A model generated the notes under the pieces. The model saw only the letters and a program-made list of their open reading frames with translations. It had not been told where the DNA came from and did no database searches. Of a stretch of DNA of 41,063 bases, positions 659-22,320 are shown piece by piece (position 1 is the first letter of the stretch; every line of letters begins with the position of its first letter). The translations under genes and the position numbers were made by a program. Source of the stretch: a virus; the IMG/VR virus record IMGVR_UViG_3300003323_000141, positions 1-41,063 of that record, one strand, 5' to 3'.

Positions 659-1324
659 ATGGAACCGGAGCAAGCTAAAGCGCTCCTGGATGAAGAATTA
701 AGGCTAATTCAGGAGAAGGTAAAGGCAGGCAAGACACTTACGCCCGGAGAGCGTAAGATGATCCAAGCCGCCGCGTCAGGCAGATCCCTAGCTACGGCTG
801 GATTAAGAGTAACAACAAAGGCAGAGCTTGCTAAAGCGCTGAAGGTTACGCGAGAGACAGTAGATGTAATTGTAAAGAAGGCTCGCGATATAGTACTTAA
901 GGGAGGGAAAGCACCGGAGAGATTAGACAACGGCAGCTATGATGTAAACGAATGGGCGGCATTCGCTAGCACGGTAACTAAGGCAAAGATCCACGACGCT
1001 TCCGGCGCTCCTGTTAACGCAGGAGCGCCTATTGCTATTTCTGAGAAAGAAAAAATAGCGATCGAGAAAGCACGAGTTGATCTTGAAGCGAGTAAGGCTG
1101 ACTTAGCAATCAAGCAAGAGCGCTGGATTTCAAAGGAAGACGTAAGGGTAGAAGTGCAGCGATGCAATGCGCACGTTAAGTCTGAGCTAAAGCGGAGATT
1201 GCTACAGGTTGCGCCAGGGCAATATGAGAGCGTTGAAGGAAGCGCAGACGAATGCCGGGAGATCAATAAGCGGCACCTGGAAGAAATATTTGAGCACTTA
1301 TTCAGTGGAGACTGGAAGCAATGA
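659..1324 (+). CDS. Terminase small subunit-like DNA-recognition protein
   Basis: A 221-residue protein whose stop overlaps the start of the large terminase subunit by ATGA, the usual place of a small terminase subunit, which binds the packaging site and recruits the large subunit. Residues about 56-80 (AELAKALKVTRETVDVIVKKA) form a plausible helix-turn-helix like the Nu1 winged helix. The middle is alanine- and lysine-rich and helical, suitable for oligomerisation, and the C-terminus is acidic. Sequence similarity to any named family is weak, so the call rests on position and the HTH-like segment. Confidence 0.65.
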   Translation: MEPEQAKALLDEELRLIQEKVKAGKTLTPGERKMIQAAASGRSLATAGLRVTTKAELAKALKVTRETVDVIVKKARDIVLKGGKAPERLDNGSYDVNEWAAFASTVTKAKIHDASGAPVNAGAPIAISEKEKIAIEKARVDLEASKADLAIKQERWISKEDVRVEVQRCNAHVKSELKRRLLQVAPGQYESVEGSADECREINKRHLEEIFEHLFSGDWKQ

Positions 1325-3249
1325 GTTTCATCGAAGCAATCTACAGAGAATCATTCAGGCCGGAGCCGCTTCTAACTATCGCGCAATGGGCGCGGCAGAA
1401 TGTCAAAGTGGATTCATCTTCGCCGATTCCCGGATACTATGACGTGCAGAATAGCCCGCAAATGCATGAGCCTCTAATTGCGTGGCAGGATGAATCGACA
1501 CGTCATATATTGACACTAGGGCCGAACCAAGGTGGCAGAACGAAGGCGCAAGAAATTGCATGCATTTGGACGGCTGTGTTCAGACAGGGGCCGATGCAAT
1601 GGAACGTTAACACAAACGTAAAGGCGGAAGAAGAGGCGGAAGATAGGTTTTGGCCGATGGCAGAAGGGTGCGAGGAATTCATGCGGCTTGTCCCTAAGTC
1701 GGTTGGAAACTTCGTGAAGAAAAAGAAGACAGCGGTTACATTCACGAATGGAATGCCGTTCAGGTTCCAGGGAGCAAACGAGAGTAACGCTCAGCAGAAG
1801 ACAATCTTAAATCAATTCAACGATGAGTGTTTCCAGTGGGACCCTGGAATGATGGATAACTTCCATAAGCGGACAACTGCGTTCCCTACGTCACATAAGA
1901 TATGGGACGGATCTACGGCGGGAAGAGAAGGGAGCGAGTTACATCAAGAGTGGAATGAGTCCTCGCGTGGAGAATGGATGTTTTGTTGCAGGAAGTGCGG
2001 ACGCGTGCAGGCGTTTGAGTGGAGACAATTGCGATGGGATACTAACGACATAACGCACCCGGAGGGCAAAAGATATAATTACGCGGAGCTAGCAAAGACC
2101 GTACGTTACGTGTGTGAGAATCCAGAGTGCGAAGAGATATACAAGGACACCTACCTAGAGAGAAAGCGCATGAACGATTCTGCTACGTATGTGCATGAAG
2201 ACCCGCTTGCGAGCGTTAAGGGGTATAGGTTCAATAGCCTGTCTGTAAATTTTCCAGGCGTTAAATGGGCGTCGCTAGTTGAAGAATTCCTCAAGGCGAA
2301 GGCTCACTACAGGGAATACGGGGATGCGAAAAAACTTGAGCTATTCTTTAGTCGGAGAATGGTGGAGTTTTGGGAGGAAGCTAGATTTCTTGGCAATACT
2401 AAAGTGGAGGTGAAGTCTGATTACTTCATCAATTGGGAGCAGAACGAATATATTAGCTACAGATGGGAGGACGAAAAACAGGGCGAGAGGATTATTCCGG
2501 GTAAACGATTTCTGTCTGCTGACAGACAAGAAGATTATTATCCGTGGATCATTCGCGGGGTTAGAGCTAACGGCGCGAGTCGCATTTACGAGTGCGGAGA
2601 AGCGCGAACGGATGAGGACTTAGAGGCGATTAGGATTAAGTGGGGGGTGCTGCCTAATTGCACGATGCTGGACATATCTTTTGAATTTTCCGAATCGTTG
2701 GGTATCTGCAAAAAGTATGGGTGGACAGGAATGAGGGGATCGCAGATGGAAAGCTTCATTCACATTTTGGAGGTACGCGAAGGCGGAAAAATAAGGCGAA
2801 TGCAGGTTAAACGCGCGTTTTCGCCGTTGAGATACGGAGATCCTCATATGGGAACGAAGGATCAGATTAGGAATCGTGGAAACCTTGCTGTTATTAGACA
2901 GAAGCTTGTGCGGTATTATGAATGGAGCAACCTATCCATTAAGAACGCCTTCGCTGCGCTTATAAGCGGGCGCTCTTCGCTATATTACGGAGTCGCGGCT
3001 AATATTGGAGAAAAGTATCACGAGCATCTTAATAGCGAGGTTAGGTATAGGATTGTAGACAGCAAGGGGCAGGAAAAATGGTTTTGGAGTAACGCAGGGC
3101 GAGACGGAAAGGGGACTAAGAAGCCTAACCATTGGAAGGACGGCGAGTTACAAGTATTGGCAGCAATGGCTATACAGGGAATGATTCCTATATTAACGTC
3201 CGACGCAGACGCGCAGGATGTGAAAGAAGAAGAAAGACAGGCAGCGTAG
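1321..3249 (+). CDS. Terminase large subunit, GpA family
   Basis: ATP-driven DNA packaging motor and nuclease of the lambda gpA type (Phage_GpA family), about the normal length at 642 residues. The N-terminus has the family's IAQWARQNVKV-like opening. A Walker A-like loop GPNQGGRT is at residues 67-74, where the usual GKT/S lysine is replaced by arginine, and a Walker B-like FNDECFQWD is near residue 166. A zinc-finger pair (CRKCG near residue 220 and CENPEC near 260) sits between the ATPase and nuclease parts, as in many GpA proteins. The C-terminal half carries the nuclease domain with the LDISFEFSES segment. It is translationally coupled to the small subunit. Confidence 0.93.
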   Translation: MSFIEAIYRESFRPEPLLTIAQWARQNVKVDSSSPIPGYYDVQNSPQMHEPLIAWQDESTRHILTLGPNQGGRTKAQEIACIWTAVFRQGPMQWNVNTNVKAEEEAEDRFWPMAEGCEEFMRLVPKSVGNFVKKKKTAVTFTNGMPFRFQGANESNAQQKTILNQFNDECFQWDPGMMDNFHKRTTAFPTSHKIWDGSTAGREGSELHQEWNESSRGEWMFCCRKCGRVQAFEWRQLRWDTNDITHPEGKRYNYAELAKTVRYVCENPECEEIYKDTYLERKRMNDSATYVHEDPLASVKGYRFNSLSVNFPGVKWASLVEEFLKAKAHYREYGDAKKLELFFSRRMVEFWEEARFLGNTKVEVKSDYFINWEQNEYISYRWEDEKQGERIIPGKRFLSADRQEDYYPWIIRGVRANGASRIYECGEARTDEDLEAIRIKWGVLPNCTMLDISFEFSESLGICKKYGWTGMRGSQMESFIHILEVREGGKIRRMQVKRAFSPLRYGDPHMGTKDQIRNRGNLAVIRQKLVRYYEWSNLSIKNAFAALISGRSSLYYGVAANIGEKYHEHLNSEVRYRIVDSKGQEKWFWSNAGRDGKGTKKPNHWKDGELQVLAAMAIQGMIPILTSDADAQDVKEEERQAA

Positions 3250-3268
3250 CAAATGCTACTCTCTTTTT

Positions 3269-3529
3269 ATGAGCATTAGGCCGATTAACTGTAATCCGTT
3301 TATCACGTTCTCTGCGCAGGAAATAGCGCAGATGATCGCGACTTACAAGCAAGCTGTAATTGACGTAGCGACAACCGGCAAGAGTTACGTGGTTCCAGGC
3401 AGAACGTTCCAGGCTGAAGACTTGGATTCGTTGAAAGATACACTGTCTGAACTGTCGGCTGCGCAAGCGTACCAGAATGGAACAAAGGTGACGCGCGCAT
3501 ATCCTGTTACAGCGAGAGTCAGGGGCTAA
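3269..3529 (+). CDS. Head-tail connector, gpW-like
   Basis: An 86-residue protein between terminase and portal, the position of lambda gpW. The FTAEEI-like start, the YVVPGRTFQAEDL segment resembling the beta-hairpin of gpW, and the terminal helix DSLKDTLSELSAA fit the gpW/gp6-like head-completion fold, which closes the portal after DNA packaging. The start follows a T-rich stretch with no clear ribosome site. The length is slightly above lambda gpW (68 residues). Confidence 0.75.
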   Translation: MSIRPINCNPFITFSAQEIAQMIATYKQAVIDVATTGKSYVVPGRTFQAEDLDSLKDTLSELSAAQAYQNGTKVTRAYPVTARVRG

Positions 3530-3537
3530 AGAAAAAT

Positions 3538-5202
3538 ATGAACGTACCTAGAAGGCAGTCGGATTTGATAGCCGCTGCGCAAAACTACCGTCCTGGGAAG
3601 TGGGAATCGCGCATTGATAAGCTTGTGGGGCTTGTAGCACCCAGGGCGGCGCTGCGGATGATGGAGGCTCGGAGGAAGATGCATTTGTTTTCCTACCAAA
3701 CGGCAAGGTCAAACGACTTGAGACCTAATGCTAACTCAAGCTCTGTTAGTGGGGAGACAATGCGCGGGAATCAAGAGCGCAAAAATATGATGTGGAACGG
3801 AATCCAGTTAATTGAGGACAGTGGCCTAGCATTCCGTATTCAACAATTATTTTGCGACTATGTGTGCGGAACACTTCGCTATCAAGCGCGGACAGGTAGC
3901 GCCCGCGTAAATCAACTGATCGAAGATTATGTCAAAGCAAAATTCAGTAGGTCGGTTGATATTGCTGGCAAGTGGAGTTTCCGGCAATACGCGATCAACG
4001 CCATTCGTGGATGCGTGGTAAAGGGTGACCTTGGCTTTAATTTCGTTCGCAACGGAGAGCTTTATTTGCAGGGCATAGAGGCGGACAGGATAGGGCATCC
4101 ATACGACTACCGTGCAACTAAGACGTTTATAGGGGGAGTGCACTTAGATCAATTCGGGGGGTATCAGGCGTTTGACATCTACACGCGGGACAGGATGTCT
4201 ACGCAATATTATTTCGAGGATCAGATTCCAGCGTACGACCAAAACGGATTGCCTAGGTTTCTGTTGGTAGTTAACCCGCTTACGTGTGATGACGTTCGGG
4301 GCAGGAGCGTGTTTGCGCGAACAATCGATAAGATTGATTGGCTGAACAAGATCCGAGACTATGAGTTACAGGCGCAAGAATGGGCGGCTAGTCAATCGGG
4401 TGTCTATTACACGCTAGATGGCGCGATGCCGAACGGCACGGCGTTTGACGACGGCGCGCAACCTGAAACGGATCAATTCGGAAATGTAATGAGGCGGTTT
4501 TCGATCAGAGCGAATACTATTACCGCAATGGGCTCAGCGGAGAGGGTGGAGATGCTCAAGAACGAACGGCCTAGCGAGAATGTACAAAAAATGTATCGCG
4601 AGACCGTCAGGGACATAGCTATCGGATGCGGGCTGAGTTTCGGGATGGTTTATGATATGTCTGGAGTTACAGGAACCGCAGTTAGGTTCTATAGCTCACA
4701 GGACAAACGTGCGATAATTGGCTGGCGAGAAATGCTGAAGGAAACATTCCTGGACATCGCGACTCCTCTTTTCATAGGTGACGCGATAGCACGGGGAGAA
4801 TTGCCGTTTCATCCAAAATGGAATTGCGGGGCCTGGATATTCCCGCCGCATCCAACAGTAGACGCTGGGAGGGATTCTAACGCAAACGTTATGGAGCGAT
4901 GCGCAGGGTTAACGTCCGGGGCTCAAATTGCTACAGAGGACGGCGAAGACATCGAAGAAATCACGCAGCAACTAGGTATCGAGGCGCAGGCGACTATTCA
5001 GCTAGCAATGGACATTGCGAAACAGCTAGGTCTATCTGACTGGAGGGAAGTTGCTGATTTTATAGGCAATGGACGCAGGACTATGCAGGGTGTTGCGTTT
5101 GAGGCAGCGCGCAGCTTACAGGCAAGAGGGACAGCGGAGCAGAGGGCGGAAGCTGGAGGCAATCCACTAGATGCAACGTCCGAAGGCGCGGAGATGCAAT
5201 AA
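3538..5202 (+). CDS. Portal protein, lambda family
   Basis: The 554-residue protein matches the lambda gpB portal family. The N-terminal region crosses the Y-x-aromatic and RSNDLRPN segments where these proteins become recognisable. The core contains the ADRIG and GGVHLDQFGG patterns and the NPLTCDDVRGRSVFA segment typical of this family (lambda-type portals have RGvs at this place). The C-terminus is acidic and Q-rich. Portals form the dodecameric DNA-entry channel at one capsid vertex. The gene follows gpW and its stop codon abuts the ATG of the DpdA-like gene, so the modification gene is part of the same late transcript. Confidence 0.92.
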   Translation: MNVPRRQSDLIAAAQNYRPGKWESRIDKLVGLVAPRAALRMMEARRKMHLFSYQTARSNDLRPNANSSSVSGETMRGNQERKNMMWNGIQLIEDSGLAFRIQQLFCDYVCGTLRYQARTGSARVNQLIEDYVKAKFSRSVDIAGKWSFRQYAINAIRGCVVKGDLGFNFVRNGELYLQGIEADRIGHPYDYRATKTFIGGVHLDQFGGYQAFDIYTRDRMSTQYYFEDQIPAYDQNGLPRFLLVVNPLTCDDVRGRSVFARTIDKIDWLNKIRDYELQAQEWAASQSGVYYTLDGAMPNGTAFDDGAQPETDQFGNVMRRFSIRANTITAMGSAERVEMLKNERPSENVQKMYRETVRDIAIGCGLSFGMVYDMSGVTGTAVRFYSSQDKRAIIGWREMLKETFLDIATPLFIGDAIARGELPFHPKWNCGAWIFPPHPTVDAGRDSNANVMERCAGLTSGAQIATEDGEDIEEITQQLGIEAQATIQLAMDIAKQLGLSDWREVADFIGNGRRTMQGVAFEAARSLQARGTAEQRAEAGGNPLDATSEGAEMQ

Positions 5203-5949
5203 ATGCTTTTCTACGTCGGCCTACATCATCCTAGCGATTCTGTCCATTTTGACAGGACGTTCATCTCGATTAACTCAGTCCGGAATAGGAGGTCTTGGTT
5301 TTGCGCCAACTGTTTCATTCTGGACTCTGGGGCATTTACTGAGATTTCGAAGTACGGAGAATATAGAAAGGAACCGGAAGAATATGCTAGAGAGATAGAC
5401 GTATGGAGGACGAATAACGGATTTCAGATGGCGGTGACGCAAGACTATATGTGTGAGCCGTTCATTTTGAGAAAGACGGGCAAAACTGTGTTAGCGCATC
5501 AGAAGATGACGATCGAGAGATATAAGAGAATAAGGAACGCAACAACGGCAGCGGTAATGCCTGTCCTGCAAGGATATAAGCCTTCGGAATACCTAGAACA
5601 CTTAGAGATGTATCACGAACAAGGGTTACTGAATGTAGGGATGAGAGTAGGAATAGGCTCTGTATGTAAGCGAAATTCAGATGTTCAGCAGATTGAGGAC
5701 TTACTAGAAATAGTAAAAGCAGCATGTGGCGGCATGAAGCTTCACGGATTTGGACTTAAGACAACAGCTCTAAGCAGTAGAAAAGTGTGGGAGTCTCTGT
5801 ATTCTGCGGATTCTATGGCGTGGTCCCTGGCTGCTAGGTTCTCCGGGGAAAATCAAAACCTCTGGTGGAACGCTAAGAAGTTTGAGGAAAAGATACTAGC
5901 GAAGCACAGAATTTTCCCGCCAGCGGGAAAAGTAGTTGCTAGTACCTAG
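5203..5949 (+). CDS. dpdA: DpdA-family deazapurine DNA transglycosylase (TGT-like)
   Basis: Protein of 248 residues in the tRNA-guanine transglycosylase superfamily, closest in pattern to DpdA, which swaps guanine in DNA for a 7-deazaguanine base. It carries LDSGAF (Asp41; TGT has DSGGF), QDYMCEPF (Asp81), PVLQGY near residue 122, RVGIGSVC, LHGFGLKT near 182 and ADSMAWS (Asp203). This motif order is the one seen in the DpdA-like group. Asp41 and Asp203 are my inferred catalytic pair. The gene begins directly after the portal stop, so it is expressed with the head genes. Palindrome copy 2 encodes residues near the C-terminus, after the last conserved motif. The base installed cannot be told from sequence; a QueC-like gene at 67-654 could supply precursor. 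Confidence 0.85.
   Translation: MLFYVGLHHPSDSVHFDRTFISINSVRNRRSWFCANCFILDSGAFTEISKYGEYRKEPEEYAREIDVWRTNNGFQMAVTQDYMCEPFILRKTGKTVLAHQKMTIERYKRIRNATTAAVMPVLQGYKPSEYLEHLEMYHEQGLLNVGMRVGIGSVCKRNSDVQQIEDLLEIVKAACGGMKLHGFGLKTTALSSRKVWESLYSADSMAWSLAARFSGENQNLWWNAKKFEEKILAKHRIFPPAGKVVAST
5914..5929. repeat. Dispersed palindrome, copy 2
   Basis: Perfect core with extended arms: positions 5912-5931 read TTTTCCCGCCAGCGGGAAAA. It lies in the last 15 codons of the DpdA-like gene, translated as FPPAGK, beyond the conserved domain. Confidence 0.95.
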
Positions 5950-5973
5950 AAGGTAATTAGTATAGCTAAGAGC

Positions 5974-7080
5974 ATGAAATTCTTTTCAACCCATTTATTC
6001 CGAATGAGTTTAGCGGAAGGAGCTAACTCAAACATAGAGCGAGACTCCGGGATAATCCGCAACGTTGCCTTAATCAGCATGGGTGCGGCAAAGGGGCATG
6101 AAGTCCTCGTGGATGACACAACGCTGAATCAGGTACAGGACGCGATTCCGCAGTCAGGATTGAAAGTTAGGTTTAATCCTAACACTTTCCAGCATACCGA
6201 AGGCGGAATTGCTGGAATTGTTCCAAAACAAAGCGTGAAGCTTGATAAACAAGATGGAGTGCTAAGGGGCGATCTTCATTTGCTTAAGAGTTATCCCTAC
6301 AAAGATTACATTTTCGAGCTAGCAGAGGAGCAGCCGGAAAGCTTCGGCCTTTCGATCGAATTTAACGGAGATCCTGAAGAAATCGGGGGAGTTAATTATG
6401 CTCGCTGCGAACAAATTTTTGCGGTTACCGTAGTTGATGAACCTGCGGCTAACGCAACAGGGTTATTCCGCGCCCTAGACAGCGGGAGAAAACAAAACGA
6501 AAACCAGAAACCTATGACGAAAGAAGAGATGGCCGAAATTAAGGCTATGATGTCTGAGGCTGTGGGGCCGGTCTCCGCAAAGCTCGGGGAGATGGAGTCT
6601 CAGCAAAAGGCGCTTGCGACGAAATTCGAGGCGTACGAAAAGAAATCGCAGCAGGACGCGGAGGACGAAGAAGACCCAGACACAGAAGGTATGAGCGAGG
6701 AAGATGTGGAATCCGAAGCCGCTATGGCTGGAGTAGTTGAGGGAGACAGCAAGATGGCCGCGAATCGGAAAGTTCACCGCTTCCGGCGCAATGCGAATAA
6801 GCCGGTTACATTCGCGCAGTTGAAGGGGCTTATGCAGAACACTCAGCTTGGTGTATTGCGTGCAACTGGCGGGCGCGCGATGTCTAGCAGTGCAGGAACT
6901 GGCGGAGACAAGCCTCAGACTGCCGTCCAGAGGTTTGCGGCTATCGTAAAAGGCATTCAGGAGTCATCGAAGTGCGGTCCGGCGCAAGCGCAGAGTTTGG
7001 CGATGAAGCAACACCCGGAAGTATACTCAGAAACGCTAGTGGAGCGCGGAATTGCTCCGGCAAAGAAAGGAGCTAAGTAA
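5974..7080 (+). CDS. Prohead protease fused to scaffold
   Basis: A 368-residue protein upstream of decoration and capsid genes. Residues 1-165 resemble phage prohead serine proteases of the S14/S78-type modules: the SFGLSIEF segment and the following VVDEPAANATGLFRA segment are typical of the catalytic region and domain end. Residues about 185-250 are charged and probably coiled coil (EEMAEIKAMM ... AEDEEDPDTEG), as in the internal scaffold part of protease/scaffold fusions. The C-terminus is basic (RKVHRFRRN, then KKGAK), as expected for a scaffold tail binding capsid protein. It probably shapes the prohead, then processes itself and neighbours. A second in-frame ATG at 6004 is a possible start. 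Confidence 0.8.
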   Translation: MKFFSTHLFRMSLAEGANSNIERDSGIIRNVALISMGAAKGHEVLVDDTTLNQVQDAIPQSGLKVRFNPNTFQHTEGGIAGIVPKQSVKLDKQDGVLRGDLHLLKSYPYKDYIFELAEEQPESFGLSIEFNGDPEEIGGVNYARCEQIFAVTVVDEPAANATGLFRALDSGRKQNENQKPMTKEEMAEIKAMMSEAVGPVSAKLGEMESQQKALATKFEAYEKKSQQDAEDEEDPDTEGMSEEDVESEAAMAGVVEGDSKMAANRKVHRFRRNANKPVTFAQLKGLMQNTQLGVLRATGGRAMSSSAGTGGDKPQTAVQRFAAIVKGIQESSKCGPAQAQSLAMKQHPEVYSETLVERGIAPAKKGAK

Positions 7081-7083
7081 GCC

Positions 7084-7473
7084 GTGGGAGTCAATGCAAT
7101 TGGAATCCTGGAGGGTGGCGACATTACCGTGTATAACGGTACCAACGCTACGTTAGGGCAATATCTCGGGTTAAAGGTCGGAGGCGACCCCCAAAACAAT
7201 GCGGTAAATGTGACACTTGCCGGAGCAGGCGATATGCCTATGGCATTTACGCGTCAGCCGATTCCGGCAGGAGAAACCGGAGTGGCAAGGCTTGTTAACG
7301 CATCCGGGACTCTAGTTGGAGTTGCCGCTGTTGATATGAGCGCCGGAGATCCTGTGTATCAGGCAGCGAATGGCACAGTAACAAACGATAGTAACGCTGG
7401 AGCAAACAAGCTCGTAGGTACGTGCACGGCTGGCGCTCTCACTGGAAAAAAGATTCAGTTCGCAAGTTACTAA
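7084..7473 (+). CDS. Capsid decoration protein, DUF2190-like
   Basis: A 129-residue protein between protease/scaffold and major capsid gene, the usual place of a decoration or stabilising protein. It has short beta-rich repeats and the VGVAAVDMSAGDPV segment, which matches the GV-A-x-D-x-x-xG pattern of DUF2190 proteins. These coat the outer capsid surface. The start is GTG at 7084, just after AAGGAGCTAAG, which serves as the ribosome site. The gene ends two bases before the capsid ATG, consistent with coupled high-level expression. Confidence 0.72.
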   Translation: MGVNAIGILEGGDITVYNGTNATLGQYLGLKVGGDPQNNAVNVTLAGAGDMPMAFTRQPIPAGETGVARLVNASGTLVGVAAVDMSAGDPVYQAANGTVTNDSNAGANKLVGTCTAGALTGKKIQFASY

Positions 7474-7474
7474 T

Positions 7475-8452
7475 ATGATCTATTCGAATACAGCGGCGCT
7501 GCCGCGCGAAGAGCTTGTGTTGATCTTGGTTCAAGGCGAAGGCCTGAATTCGGATCTAATTTGGAAAGAAATCCTTCCGGAATATCCGGTTGATAGGCGC
7601 AACGCGCATCTTATCAATGCGACAATTGCGACGGCGGAGCTTTTGAGAGTCGCGGACAAAGTTGCTGCGCCGGGAGCGAACGTAGAGCGTATTACGCTCA
7701 CGTTTGGGGATCAGAGCTTTAAGGTCGTTATCCGAAAGGAAGAAGTTCTTATTCCTGATGAGATTGAAAAGGATTACGGCGACTACTTCAGCACTGAGGC
7801 ATTTGCCAGCCGTAAGGGTCAGGAGCGTCTTGATTTGCTGATGGAGTATCTGTGTGCAATCGCGATCTTTAGCACCGCTACTTTTGGCGCGGCTACAAAT
7901 TCGCTGGTCGCATACACAGAGGCTAACATCGCTACGATTTCCTTCGTGGCAGACATTTACGCTGCTATCGAAAAGGTGAGGGATCAAGGCGAGCAGCCTA
8001 ATACTGTAGTAATCCCTGCGCAGGTGTATCAGCGGATTCGCCGTTCGTCGCTTGTTGTTGCGTTCGTTCGCGGCGTGCTGATGGCGCAACAGGAGGTTAA
8101 CACGAATACAATCCAAAAGGCGTTTGAGGATGAGGGTATCAAAAAGGTTGTAGTAGGACGGGCGCGTTACAACAGCGCCGCGTCTGGAGATACCCCCTCG
8201 CTGCAAAAGGTATGGCCGAATACTTATATCTTTGTCGGCAAGACCGGCGACAAGTTTAACGAAGAGGCGGACGGAATGAACACGGTTTCTGGAGTAGGAG
8301 CAACGGTGTACTGGAGCGAATACGGTATGCGCGAGGTTCAGACGTATCGAGACGAACCGAAGGAGAGCAACGTAGTTCGCGTTAAAACGTCAGCAATCCC
8401 ATACATCGCAAACGCGAATGCGGGAACACTGATCGCTACGCAATTCGCCTAA
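7475..8452 (+). CDS. Major capsid protein
   Basis: A 325-residue protein located directly after the decoration gene, as in lambda-like head operons. The order of features suits an HK97-fold capsid protein: N-terminal helical segment, an E-loop-like region near residues 75-110, a long central helix region with VADIYAAIEKVRDQG and NTVVIPAQVYQRIRR (the spine and P-domain pattern seen in capsid proteins), and a beta-rich end (GATVYWSEYGMREVQTYRDE). No close named family can be assigned by eye. Position, length and fold-like pattern support the call. Confidence 0.85.
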   Translation: MIYSNTAALPREELVLILVQGEGLNSDLIWKEILPEYPVDRRNAHLINATIATAELLRVADKVAAPGANVERITLTFGDQSFKVVIRKEEVLIPDEIEKDYGDYFSTEAFASRKGQERLDLLMEYLCAIAIFSTATFGAATNSLVAYTEANIATISFVADIYAAIEKVRDQGEQPNTVVIPAQVYQRIRRSSLVVAFVRGVLMAQQEVNTNTIQKAFEDEGIKKVVVGRARYNSAASGDTPSLQKVWPNTYIFVGKTGDKFNEEADGMNTVSGVGATVYWSEYGMREVQTYRDEPKESNVVRVKTSAIPYIANANAGTLIATQFA

Positions 8453-8486
8453 ATTCGGGCATTTAAACGGTTAAACGACACGCTAT

Positions 8487-8810
8487 ATGGCAGAAGACAA
8501 GAAGCCGGAAGACAAGAAGCCTAAGGAGGAAATCTCCGCCTTGAACCAGCAGAGGGTCCCGCCTGACCTTGAGAAAGAAGGGTATAATCTCAAGGGCAAG
8601 GGATTCGTGCATGTCAGGGAAGTGGAAGTCGGCAAAAAAGGCGAAACGGAACGCGTTCCCCGCGAGAATCCGGATGGCTCACAGATGCAGCGGTTTTACC
8701 TAAAGATCGTAAAGGATGATCCGATGGGTAAAACGCACAAACTCAAGAGCGAAACGCATTTCTGGGAAGGGAATGCGGCTGAATTCCGCCGTCATTTCGA
8801 GGCGGCATAA
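8487..8810 (+). CDS. Small charged protein, possible head-associated
   Basis: 107 residues. The first 20 are a K/E/D/P-rich repeat (EDKKPEDKKPKEE) and the rest is a small soluble domain rich in charged residues. I do not recognise a family. It lies between the capsid and connector genes and is followed by a strong hairpin (8835-8865), so it is the last gene of the head block. A role in capsid maturation or as a head-tail adaptor is possible from position only. Confidence 0.65.
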   Translation: MAEDKKPEDKKPKEEISALNQQRVPPDLEKEGYNLKGKGFVHVREVEVGKKGETERVPRENPDGSQMQRFYLKIVKDDPMGKTHKLKSETHFWEGNAAEFRRHFEAA

Positions 8811-8834
8811 CTAACACATAGGGAAAATGCTACA

Positions 8835-8865
8835 AGCGGCGCTGCTCCAAAAGGGCAGCGCCGCT
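8835..8865 (+). terminator. Hairpin after the head genes (possible attenuator)
   Basis: Perfect 11-bp stem AGCGGCGCTGC (8835-8845) with GCAGCGCCGCT (8855-8865) and a 9-base loop, followed by AACATTTT. The T run is short and belongs to palindrome copy 3. It is likely a partial terminator lowering expression of tail genes relative to capsid genes. Confidence 0.6.
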
Positions 8866-8871
8866 AACATT

Positions 8872-8887
8872 TTCCCGCCAGCGGGAA
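8872..8887. repeat. Dispersed palindrome, copy 3
   Basis: Perfect core with full arms (8870-8889). It is intergenic, starting 4 bases after the 8835-8865 hairpin and ending 2 bases before the ATG at 8892, so a protein bound here could block translation-start DNA or the ribosome site region. Confidence 0.95.
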
Positions 8888-8891
8888 AATT

Positions 8892-9239
8892 ATGATTGAT
8901 GTATCTGCGATGTCGCGACACGGACAGGCTGCGATTAACGCTCTTCCTGTTACGGTTAAATTCGAGGGAGGGGAAACCTGCCGCGCATCATTGTTACAGA
9001 ATAGGACAGGAGTCCAGGGAACGGATGGGGGTATCATTTGGGGGATTGGAGGAGAGTTACTAATTTCGAAAGCGGAGATGGCGGCAAATGGAATTGCAAT
9101 AATGCCTAGAGCGGAGGATGTGATACAGGTTAAGCAGTCGGATAACTCGTTTCTTGCCTATAGGGTAGAGACAGTCATGGGCGACGATCATCCTAACGCA
9201 ACAGAGATTCAGGTGGCGCTAGGCGCGCCTAATAAGTAA
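8892..9239 (+). CDS. Putative head-tail joining protein
   Basis: 115 residues. Position after the capsid block and before a tail-terminator-like gene matches head-tail joining proteins of the gpFII type. The protein is beta-rich, with VTVKFEGGETCRASLL at the start and a terminal domain ending in a TEIQVALG-like strand, consistent with a small beta-barrel connector. No specific motif is decisive. Copy 3 of the dispersed palindrome ends 2 bases before its ATG and there is no normal ribosome site. Confidence 0.55.
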   Translation: MIDVSAMSRHGQAAINALPVTVKFEGGETCRASLLQNRTGVQGTDGGIIWGIGGELLISKAEMAANGIAIMPRAEDVIQVKQSDNSFLAYRVETVMGDDHPNATEIQVALGAPNK

Positions 9240-9241
9240 CT

Positions 9242-9688
9242 ATGTCAAACGCACTTGAGAGAAACGCAGCAAACGCTGTTATATCTGTGCTAAGTACAGA
9301 CGGAACGCTAGCGGCTATCCCTCCTAGGGAGTGGAATAGCGAGGAAGGCGCAGCGTTTCCTAGGTTATCGGTGAAGTGTACGCAACAAGAGGAAATGGTA
9401 TTCCTGCACGGTCTGTATAGAGTAGATTGCGAAGTAAAAATGGTTACTCGCGTAACTGACGACATGTCGGATCTATGGATGCAGAAGGCGCGGGCGCTTA
9501 CGACTGATATTGCTGCAAACACTATTTACGGATTACCTGGAGGAGCGGAGGTCTTAATTAGCGATGATCATTTCCAATGCTTAGCGCTTGAGCCCAGGCC
9601 AGCGAGTAATTCAACAGATGCGGATAAGCGTACGCAAATCTTGCATTTTTCTTTGGTAGGATTCGACAAGGATAGATTTACGGCTTAA
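9242..9688 (+). CDS. Putative tail terminator/completion protein
   Basis: 148 residues, starting 2 bases after the preceding stop. The pattern resembles tail terminator proteins of the gpU type: an N-terminal helix with repeated alanines, a central beta segment (RLSVKCTQQEEM, then YRVDCEVKMVTRV) and the common ending HFSLVGFDKDRF. Tail terminators cap the tail tube and join it to the head. Position supports the call; sequence evidence is moderate. Confidence 0.6.
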   Translation: MSNALERNAANAVISVLSTDGTLAAIPPREWNSEEGAAFPRLSVKCTQQEEMVFLHGLYRVDCEVKMVTRVTDDMSDLWMQKARALTTDIAANTIYGLPGGAEVLISDDHFQCLALEPRPASNSTDADKRTQILHFSLVGFDKDRFTA

Positions 9689-9717
9689 ATAGATTTGCAG
9701 CATAACTAGCACAAAAC

Positions 9718-9903
9718 ATGAAAGATAAATGTCCAAAGTGTAATGGCGAAGGAGTCATTGACTCAGTAGCTGGAAAGCCGTGGAGCGAGGCAGACAGGAT
9801 CAAGGTGCGGAGCGGAGAATTGCAGCCTGAAACCTGTCCGGAGTGCAAAAGGACAGGGAAGGTTGAAAAGGCGGAGCCTGCTAAACAGGAGGTATCTAAC
9901 TAA
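9718..9903 (+). CDS. Small DnaJ-type zinc-finger protein
   Basis: 61 residues with two CxxC motifs spaced like the DnaJ cysteine-rich domain: CPKCNGEG near residue 4 and CPECKRTG near residue 40. The CxxCxGxG form is clear in both. It probably binds zinc and may help fold a tail or head protein. It stops directly before the ATG of the next gene (TAAATG), so the two are coupled. The ribosome site for the following gene (CAGGAGG) lies inside this gene. Confidence 0.7.
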   Translation: MKDKCPKCNGEGVIDSVAGKPWSEADRIKVRSGELQPETCPECKRTGKVEKAEPAKQEVSN

Positions 9904-10299
9904 ATGCCTGCTTCACCTATCCTGCAAAACCTATCAGGACTTACGTTTCTAATGCCTGCGGAAACCGGCATTATTAAGCGTAACTTCGGTAGAAATACTG
10001 AGCGGGAATTCATTTGGGTCTATGATTCCTCGCAGGGTTTCGATATTGGATTTGTTGCGCACAATCCTGCCGCGACATATAACCTAGGAGGGTTCCTGTC
10101 CGGAGATACTGGAGTGGCTGCGGCGGCTCCGGGAATCGCGTTAACTATCGCTGATACCGATTTCGGCAATGGCGTAGGAACGGATGGAACGGATAACGGA
10201 ACGGTCTGGACGCTAACGACAGCGCTTCAGCACGGGGAAAAGAATCTAAGGGAATTTTCCGTGACAGCGAGGCAAGCGCCTGGAGTAACGGCGGCTTAA
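9904..10299 (+). CDS. Putative tail tube or other structural protein
   Basis: 131 residues with no recognised motif. It is glycine- and threonine-rich, has low charge and ends in a beta-rich region (TVWTLTTALQ, then FSVTARQAPG). Its place, before the chaperone gene pair that carries the frameshift, is where siphophages encode the major tail tube protein, but it is short for that and another gene intervenes. A cargo or minor tail role is equally possible. Confidence 0.5.
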   Translation: MPASPILQNLSGLTFLMPAETGIIKRNFGRNTEREFIWVYDSSQGFDIGFVAHNPAATYNLGGFLSGDTGVAAAAPGIALTIADTDFGNGVGTDGTDNGTVWTLTTALQHGEKNLREFSVTARQAPGVTAA

Positions 10300-20395: not shown

Positions 20396-20875
20396 ATGTT
20401 TCACGCGCTTATGTACGAAATTAAACCGATTGCTCCTTTCCCCGTTTGGACGGAAATTGTCCTTTCGTGGTTTGAGAAACAGCCGGTACTTCAGACGCTT
20501 CTGATCCTGATAGGGTTAGATATTGTCACAGGAATCCTTGTCAGCATAGGAAACAAAAACCTTGATTCGTCTATCAGTTGGCGCGGAATGAGCCGAAAGG
20601 CGCTAACTATCGTATTGGTAGGAGTTGCCGCCGCTATAGAGCCATTTGCGCACGGCGTCCCGCTTATGAATCTAACTGCGATGTTCTATTGCGTCAGTGA
20701 AGCAATAAGCATCGTAGAAAACGCGGCGGCTGCGGGCGTACCGCTTCCGCAAGCGCTTGTGGATGTTCTCGCGAAATTGCGCGAGGATAAAAAGAGTCGG
20801 AGGCGTCCGGTTGGCGAAGTAACTCAGCCGGTAGCGACTCCCGTAAACGTAAACGTAAACATACCGAAAGAATGA
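20396..20875 (+). CDS. Phage holin, holin-4 (phi LC3/toxin-secretion) family
   Basis: 159 residues matching the family of small holins with a hydrophobic core. Transmembrane segments are visible at about residues 27-49 (LLILIGLDIVTGILVSI), 61-82 (KALTIVLVGVAAAIEPFA-like) and a third hydrophobic part near 85-105. The motif SISWRGMSRKALTI is characteristic of the family, and so is the conserved GVPLPQ pattern. Holins make the pores that release endolysin. The start may be ATG 20396 or 20411; neither has a strong ribosome site. It overlaps the next gene by ATGA. Confidence 0.85.
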   Translation: MFHALMYEIKPIAPFPVWTEIVLSWFEKQPVLQTLLILIGLDIVTGILVSIGNKNLDSSISWRGMSRKALTIVLVGVAAAIEPFAHGVPLMNLTAMFYCVSEAISIVENAAAAGVPLPQALVDVLAKLREDKKSRRRPVGEVTQPVATPVNVNVNIPKE

Positions 20876-21593: not shown

Positions 21594-21623
21594 GCCGCGC
21601 TTGTGCTTTGGCATGGGCGCGGC
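21594..21623 (+). terminator. Hairpin before endolysin gene
   Basis: 7-bp stem GCCGCGC (21594-21600) with GCGCGGC (21617-21623) and a 16-base loop, followed by a T-rich stretch up to the endolysin ATG at 21640. Candidate weak terminator or translational control element. Confidence 0.45.
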
Positions 21624-21639
21624 ATATTCGTTTCTTAAT

Positions 21640-22320
21640 ATGAATAACATAAGCCAAGCTGCCATTGATCTAATGGCTAAGTATGAGACAGGAGGCAGGG
21701 CATATTACGAAAAGGTTTACAAGTCGGGCCCATGCTGGCCGCAAGGTAGGAGCGGGATTACAATAGGGGTAGGGTATGATTTAGGTTATGAGACAACCTT
21801 GCGGGATGACTGGAGCGACAAACTGTCATCCAGCGATTTAGCGAGGCTGTCAGACGTTACGGGCTTAACGGGACAGCATGCGCAAAGTGAGTTATCTCAC
21901 GTTAGGGGAATCGTGATTCCGTGGGACGTGGCAATGGACGTGTTTATGCGCCGAACGCTTCCGCGTGAGGTACAGGCGACATTGAGGACCTTTCCGGGGT
22001 GCGATGAAAAACTTTCCTCTAACGCTTTCGGCGCGCTTGTGAGTCTTGTTTACAATAGAGGCGAGAGCTTAGCTGGAGATCGCAGGGATGAGATGCGGCA
22101 TATTCACGATGCGATCTTGGCTAACGTTGGGAGCACATGCGCTAATCCCAATCAGGATTTGTTAGCATACATCGCGAAGGAGTTTATTTCCATGCGGAGA
22201 CTTTGGCCGCACGTGAAAGGCAGCGACGGAGATTTGTGGACACGTAGGGGTGAGGAAGCCGCATTAGTTACTACGCCCGATGTCGCTGCAAAGACGCAAG
22301 CCTCTACGGTGCAAGCCTGA
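21640..22320 (+). CDS. Endolysin, GH24/pesticin-type lysozyme
   Basis: 226 residues from ATG 21640. The YETGG motif places a probable catalytic Glu at residue 16, and the SGITIGVGYDLG motif gives the threonine/aspartate region of the GH24 lysozyme family, matching pesticin-like and T4-type enzymes that cleave the glycan strands of peptidoglycan. The C-terminus has MRRLWPHVKG and a LWTRRGEEA motif typical of this family. No signal sequence is visible, so it would depend on the holin at 20396-20875. The HNH gene that follows overlaps its 3' end. Confidence 0.85.
   Translation: MNNISQAAIDLMAKYETGGRAYYEKVYKSGPCWPQGRSGITIGVGYDLGYETTLRDDWSDKLSSSDLARLSDVTGLTGQHAQSELSHVRGIVIPWDVAMDVFMRRTLPREVQATLRTFPGCDEKLSSNAFGALVSLVYNRGESLAGDRRDEMRHIHDAILANVGSTCANPNQDLLAYIAKEFISMRRLWPHVKGSDGDLWTRRGEEAALVTTPDVAAKTQASTVQA

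Follow-up and report, generated by a model that had tools for sequence, protein, structure and literature searches.

What does a gene for a DpdA-type, guanine-exchanging enzyme do directly behind the portal gene of a virus whose record holds no pathway of its own for the base that such an enzyme would insert? The window that raises this question is a whole IMG/VR virus record of 41,063 bases, from a bacterial virus known from environmental DNA alone, and the possibility that the record is incomplete or a fragment bears on every gene absence reported here. The kind of enzyme that swaps bases in DNA is already known, and the DpdA of this virus is a further member in an unusual place.

Family, fold, and catalytic residues of the DpdA protein

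The dpdA gene runs from 5203 to 5949 on the + strand and encodes 248 amino acids, which we class as a singleton-type DpdA-family guanine transglycosylase (PF23859, 3e-35; phrog_1279, 5e-55). All four motifs on which the first-pass annotation had based its assignment, LDSGAF, PVLQGY, LHGFGLKT, and ADSMAWS, are present in the translation of this ATG-initiated reading frame. The lack of any gap to the portal gene had also been read correctly; the portal stop codon TAA occupies 5200 to 5202, and the dpdA ATG begins at 5203. Because relatives start at the same place and a Shine-Dalgarno-like GGAG lies within the 3' end of the portal gene (5190 to 5193, + strand), 9 nt before the ATG, we regard the start as sound. 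A gap of 24 nt separates dpdA from the gene that follows it.

By family the protein is a DpdA, a known kind of enzyme that appears to be intact as judged from its sequence. Its PF23859 score of 122.1 bits compares with a curated cut-off of 27, and a tblastn search at E≤1e-3 matched it to 421 phage records. The family profile aligned by hhalign to 16 DpdAs of the CAjan/Saguaro type with a probability of 98.2% and an E value of 2.7e-14, the DSGAF, LHGFG, and DS motifs being aligned, whereas its alignment to nine bacterial tRNA-guanine transglycosylases (TGTs) reached a probability of 0.2% and an E value of 0.25. Profiles therefore do not group the protein with tRNA-specific TGTs; such a grouping had been named in advance as fatal to the assignment. 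The DpdAs of CAjan and Saguaro have no PF23859 match, while that of mycobacteriophage Pops scores 475 bits, well above the window protein; PF23859 thus places the window DpdA in a Pops-type group that mostly lacks pathway genes.

Relatives were gathered by scanning viral contigs with a six-sequence alignment, from whose 162 hits we retained 80, and by a scan of genome contigs, which added 26 loci located in prophages or in cellular genomes. Alignment A5 took 55 of the 80 viral and 6 of the 26 genome relatives, and alignment A7 took 9 of the 10 TGT loci. The nearest relatives among named phages are Sinorhizobium phage phiLM21 (48% identity), Rhizobium phage RHph_TM3_3_3 (46%), and Microcystis phages (42%), followed at about 33 to 38% by mycobacteriophages of the K- and B1-type clusters. 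The singleton PF23859 DpdAs of phiLM21 and of mycobacteriophages Pops and Zavala share the catalytic residues of the window protein, and none of these three phages has a QueC. One close relative (L010, 7995 to 8720) is encoded on a Methylocapsa plasmid, where Dot/Icm-type secretion genes form a cluster around it.

Asp41, Asp203, and His181 do not vary among the 62 sequences aligned, and of the 35 columns in which the other 61 sequences all agree, the window DpdA keeps 34. We take Asp41 and Asp203 to be the pair of aspartates that serve catalysis in the TGT/DpdA superfamily. His181, which lies in LHGFG, is present also in the DpdA of CAjan and would be equivalent to published position 196; the part of the literature consulted describes the conserved DpdA histidine as absent from DpdA2 (PMC6884629). 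The annotated DpdA of Microcystis phage Mwe-JY07 (L004, 7992 to 8762) has lost the ADSMAWS region through an apparent frameshift and is probably inactive, or else its sequence is in error.

The AlphaFold2 model (pLDDT 93.1) is a single TGT-like domain with no extra domain. Foldseek ranked 7ui4, "DNA preQ0 insertase DpdA," first (E 6.7e-6; TM 0.57) with TGTs next, and the VIA structural aligner gave a Z score of 18.9 over 229 residues with the archaeosine TGT 1iq8, 7ui4 being absent from the best 50 VIA matches listed. Since VIA favors a TGT and leaves 7ui4 unlisted, the fold alone cannot separate a DNA from a tRNA substrate. Together with the PHROGs label for the family of the dpdA product, queuine tRNA-ribosyltransferase, this shared barrel is what could be said for a tRNA-guanine transglycosylase or other RNA-acting enzyme misread as DpdA. 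We consider such a misreading highly improbable in the face of the profile comparison; moreover, PDB sequence searches with the protein and with its profile gave no meaningful match and none to a TGT, the CxCxxC zinc motif (C-terminal in the TGT consensus) is absent from the translation, and the record contains no tRNA gene.

Possible source of a modified base

Measurements given in the consulted portion of one report (PMC6884629) cover two phages that carry dpdA only: Orion, in which no modification was found, a result ascribed to neither phage nor host making preQ0, and Salmonella phage 7-11, in which about 0.02% of G was modified, the modified base being dADG. The same portion reports that 28 to 32% of G is replaced in Rosebush and CAjan, which carry the preQ0 pathway genes folE, queD, queE, and queC, and that deletion of dpdA from CAjan abolishes all modification; it calls the role of singleton DpdAs open.

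No match to QueD (PF01242), to QueE/radical SAM (PF04055), or to the YhhQ/Vut_1 transporter (PF02592) was found in the record, and none to FolE among the 50 window ORFs run through PHROGs. Among + strand ORFs of at least 50 amino acids, none besides a holin-like one (20396 to 20875) has two TM-like stretches.

The window does contain a QueC-like gene (67 to 654, + strand; alternative TTG start at 19), which is separated by 4 nt from the gene for the terminase small subunit and whose product is matched by PF06508 (1e-9) over its C-terminal half. This protein shares its predicted fold and its zinc cysteines with canonical QueC and Cap9, all four cysteines of C(x)8CxxCxxC being kept with a spacing of 9 in place of 8. 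Unlike canonical QueC, it has lost the ATP loop, SGGxDS having become DAGLES, as well as the YGQRH and VPxRN stretches and YPDC. SGGxDS is kept in 68 of 69 viral QueC relatives, the remaining one being truncated (54 of the 69 entered alignment A6). Residues proven essential by mutation of Escherichia coli QueC, according to the part of the literature consulted, are replaced or missing in the window protein, and the QueC-family clusters that this part describes in detail all keep the SGGxDS loop (PMC13329287). On its sequence, the window protein is an unusual member of PF06508 that is unlikely to make preQ0, and we rejected the gene as a preQ0 source on account of its lost ATP loop and substrate motifs. 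Its identification as DpdL, reportedly a decarboxylase described in a 2023 paper, is likewise unsupported; Acidovorax phage ACP17, which we take to be modified with a deazaguanine, has no PF06508 match.

With no QueD, QueE, or YhhQ in the record and a degenerate QueC-like protein, any modification must use a base that is host-made or imported. The first of these sources appears to be available to many hosts: among 24 cellular genomes with the same DpdA type, a TGT is present in 23 and a near-full-length QueC in 17 (E≤2.3e-36), and synthesis of the precursor is thus probably within reach of most of these hosts. Profile searches for transporters, QueC, terminases, and portals covered the window and the 42 of the 80 relatives that lie in records of 30 kb or more. 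PF02592 was matched in 5 of these 42 records, in each case on the same strand and no farther than 330 bp downstream from the part of dpdA that had been matched. When BLAST matches are added, a YhhQ/Vut_1-type gene lies directly downstream of singleton dpdA in 8 of the 80 loci (L036, L037, L038, L059, L068, L075, L077, and L092), three of which have identical scores and may represent one virus. This pairing suggests salvage or import of the base by these relatives. The named phage of best identity, phiLM21, has a YhhQ-type transporter beside dpdA, whereas the window has none.

Fuller gene sets occur as well. In a 99-kb viral record (L105), a stretch of 20 kb holds a DpdA relative together with queE, folE, queC, queD, and a YhhQ-like gene, and a 111-kb record (L063) holds a full QueC and a QueE-like gene. 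Genes of the PAPS-reductase (PP-loop) type recur near dpdA in relatives (L035, L042, L062, L085, L003 at 9291 to 10100, and L011 at 6793 to 7926).

Placement of dpdA among the head genes

The window opens with a run of packaging and head genes. The QueC-like gene is followed by genes for the terminase small subunit (659 to 1324, + strand; phrog_57, 3.6e-6), the terminase large subunit (1321 to 3249, + strand; phrog_15, 4e-34), a head-tail adaptor (from 3269; phrog_118), and the portal (3538 to 5202, + strand; phrog_21, 3.5e-32), which abuts dpdA. Beyond dpdA come a gene in the protease/scaffold slot (5974 to 7080, + strand), a head decoration gene (from 7084; phrog_122, 3.8e-4), and the gene for the major head protein (7475 to 8452, + strand; phrog_1005, 1e-26). 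The first-pass annotation had placed dpdA between portal and prohead protease, and the portal half of that statement stands on its profile match; the protease half is a matter of position, the gene at 5974 to 7080 having no PHROG match, no Pfam match above cut-off, and no phage tblastn match. We did not accept a protease identity for it, as no profile names it and it does not convincingly resemble the protease-type gene found in L095, a distant relative of the head module. The phage as a whole is divergent: the terminase large subunit shows 22% identity to that of Verrucomicrobia phage P8625, its best-ranked match, the major head protein has no phage tblastn match, and DpdA, the QueC-like protein, and the portal, each used as a single query, retrieved 0, 0, and 1 locus, respectively, as near relatives in viral contigs. 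Inside the terminase small subunit gene, at 1004 to 1029, 11 base pairs form a stem closed by a loop of 4 bases, and a tail that contains T follows.

In L095 and in P8625, both distant relatives of this head module, nothing lies between the portal gene and the protease-type gene that follows it, and dpdA therefore looks like an addition to the module. A terminase or portal was detected in 30 of the 42 relatives whose records reach at least 30 kb, and the median distance from dpdA to the nearest of these genes is 11.9 kb. The distance is at most 3 kb in 5 of the 30, all with dpdA upstream of the terminase on the same strand; in none of the 30 does dpdA lie directly beside a detected portal. Beside the dpdA of relatives, the commonest families are DNA methyltransferases, helicases, and exonucleases; terminase accounts for 2 of the 77 immediate neighbor ORFs scanned (of 156, mostly the longer ones).

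Among better-known phages, Pops has dpdA inside its head/tail genes on the opposite strand, where the window gene is co-directional, and Zavala has it before an integrase. In Saguaro, Sour, and Knocker, as in the window, modification genes adjoin the terminase where the structural genes begin, and the layout directly before the terminase is described also for CRB2 in the part of the literature consulted (PMC6392294). In Saguaro, Sour, and Knocker, however, the dpdA/que cluster lies upstream of the terminase, whereas the window dpdA comes after the portal; those three phages have queC, queD, queE, and folE, the full preQ0 pathway that the window lacks, and their DpdAs are 18 to 22% identical to the window protein. 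The DpdA of CAjan is a profile relative of the window protein, and that of JenP2 matches it by tblastn; in both phages dpdA lies beside the DNA polymerase gene, far from the head operon and with pathway genes alongside. DNA modification by the CAjan enzyme is proven, according to the portion consulted (PMC6884629). The presence of dpdA among structural genes thus has precedent, but a co-directional insertion between the portal gene and the protease slot was seen nowhere else in our data, and the portions of the literature consulted yielded no report of dpdA in a late operon or between portal and capsid genes. The unusual parts of this locus are the placement of dpdA and its degenerate QueC-like partner.

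Late expression of dpdA is plausible from its position, and Saguaro, Sour, and Knocker offer precedents for modification genes that open a late operon. On the + strand, no promoter-like site was found from 3185 to 9000 and nothing resembling a terminator from 3259 to 9000, with counts at chance level that prove little. Lateness is not a rule of the family, given how far from head genes the dpdA of most relatives lies. The first-pass annotation had set late modification against modification during replication. Exchange of a base within a polymer is post-replicative for TGT-type enzymes, and so for any DpdA, and that contrast separates nothing.

Function of the portal-linked enzyme

The reading that we favor, and hold to be moderately probable, is that of an active DpdA, translated with the portal and late in infection, that inserts a host-made or imported 7-deazaguanine in phage DNA before packaging and so partly masks restriction sites. 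Translation of dpdA with the portal in a late head operon is suggested by the abutting genes. As a member of its family, the enzyme would remove guanine from phage DNA by way of a covalent intermediate between Asp203 and deoxyribose, with Asp41 in the pocket; these roles of the two aspartates we carry over from TGT work. The base inserted in its place may be preQ0 or a relative, its origin in the host or by import being inferred from the gene content of the record and from the dpdA-YhhQ pair of relatives. The position of the gene would put the exchange before packaging, and the partial masking of restriction sites is proposed by analogy with other DpdA phages, for which protection is known. 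Counting against this reading are the unmodified DNA of Orion, the lack of FolE, QueD, QueE, and transporter matches in the record, and the distance between dpdA and head genes in most relatives.

Palindrome avoidance served as a proxy for such protection. The observed/expected ratio for 4-mer palindromes is 0.84 in the window, 0.74 in T7, and 0.92 to 0.98 in CAjan, JenP2, and Saguaro. The window ratio is lower than that of most dpdA relatives, with 3 of 39 as low as its first 20 kb. For 6-mer palindromes, the ratio is 0.67 in the window and 0.35 in Saguaro, which has the full dpdA/que set and a 4-mer ratio of 0.98; the 6-mer test failed to separate modified from unmodified phages. The 4-mer avoidance of the window mildly argues that restriction still acts on this genome, by a measure that the control phages show to be poor.

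A rather unlikely but credible alternative is that dpdA is an intact, mostly idle passenger (moron) gene whose product modifies DNA only if the host supplies the base. The consulted account of Orion, whose DNA carries no modification when the host lacks preQ0 (PMC6884629), supports this alternative, as do the missing pathway and transporter and the empty site between portal and next head gene in L095 and P8625. The GC content of dpdA, 45% against 51% for both the portal gene and the gene at 5974 to 7080, fits a later insertion. The retention of 34 of 35 invariant columns, on the other hand, implies steady selection, and the direct abutment of dpdA on the portal gene also speaks against an idle passenger.

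We think it quite improbable that the QueC-like protein, having lost its ATP loop, serves to bind or pass on a 7-deazaguanine that DpdA transfers to DNA or protein, in the manner of Cap9 and Cap10 of type IV CBASS. As little credence goes to a packaging-coupled form of this idea, in which the QueC-derived protein and DpdA are co-expressed and load a host-derived 7-deazaguanine onto DNA during packaging, or onto a head protein; such chemistry, if real, would be undescribed for the QueC family in the portions of the literature examined. The two genes do stand on either side of the packaging genes, all in a single tightly spaced run, Cap9 (9nto_B) is the top fold match of the QueC-like model (pLDDT 90), and Cap10 is a remodelled enzyme of the tRNA-transglycosylase family, according to the consulted part of its description (PMC11996544). 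The QueC/Cap9-like fold is, however, partly built in, since the model alignment consists of canonical QueCs, on which the Cap9 match also leans. The loss of SGGxDS, kept by every QueC-family cluster described in detail in the part consulted (PMC13329287), counts against the Cap9/Cap10-like idea, as does the finding of PF06508 in the 42 long records of relatives as a single match, to a full-length QueC. PHROG searches with 50 window ORFs showed no CD-NTase, the partner (PF18144) expected in type IV CBASS.

The DpdA fold might instead have gained, through its place in the head operon, a role as a structural part or as cargo of the virion, for example as an ejected enzyme. The position between the portal gene and the protease slot speaks for this, but with a full set of catalytic residues and a model that adds nothing to the single TGT-like domain, it is the merest of prospects.

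The singleton group of DpdAs is represented in hundreds of phage records, as the 421 matches indicate, and many of these records have no base pathway. The portal-tied dpdA, the degenerate QueC-like protein, and the dpdA-YhhQ pair of relatives lead us to propose that singleton DpdAs may draw on salvage for their base and that DNA can be modified at a late step. Elsewhere in the window, a protein without a PHROG match (21601 to 22320) is 42% identical over 210 amino acids to a protein of L016, another dpdA-carrying virus.
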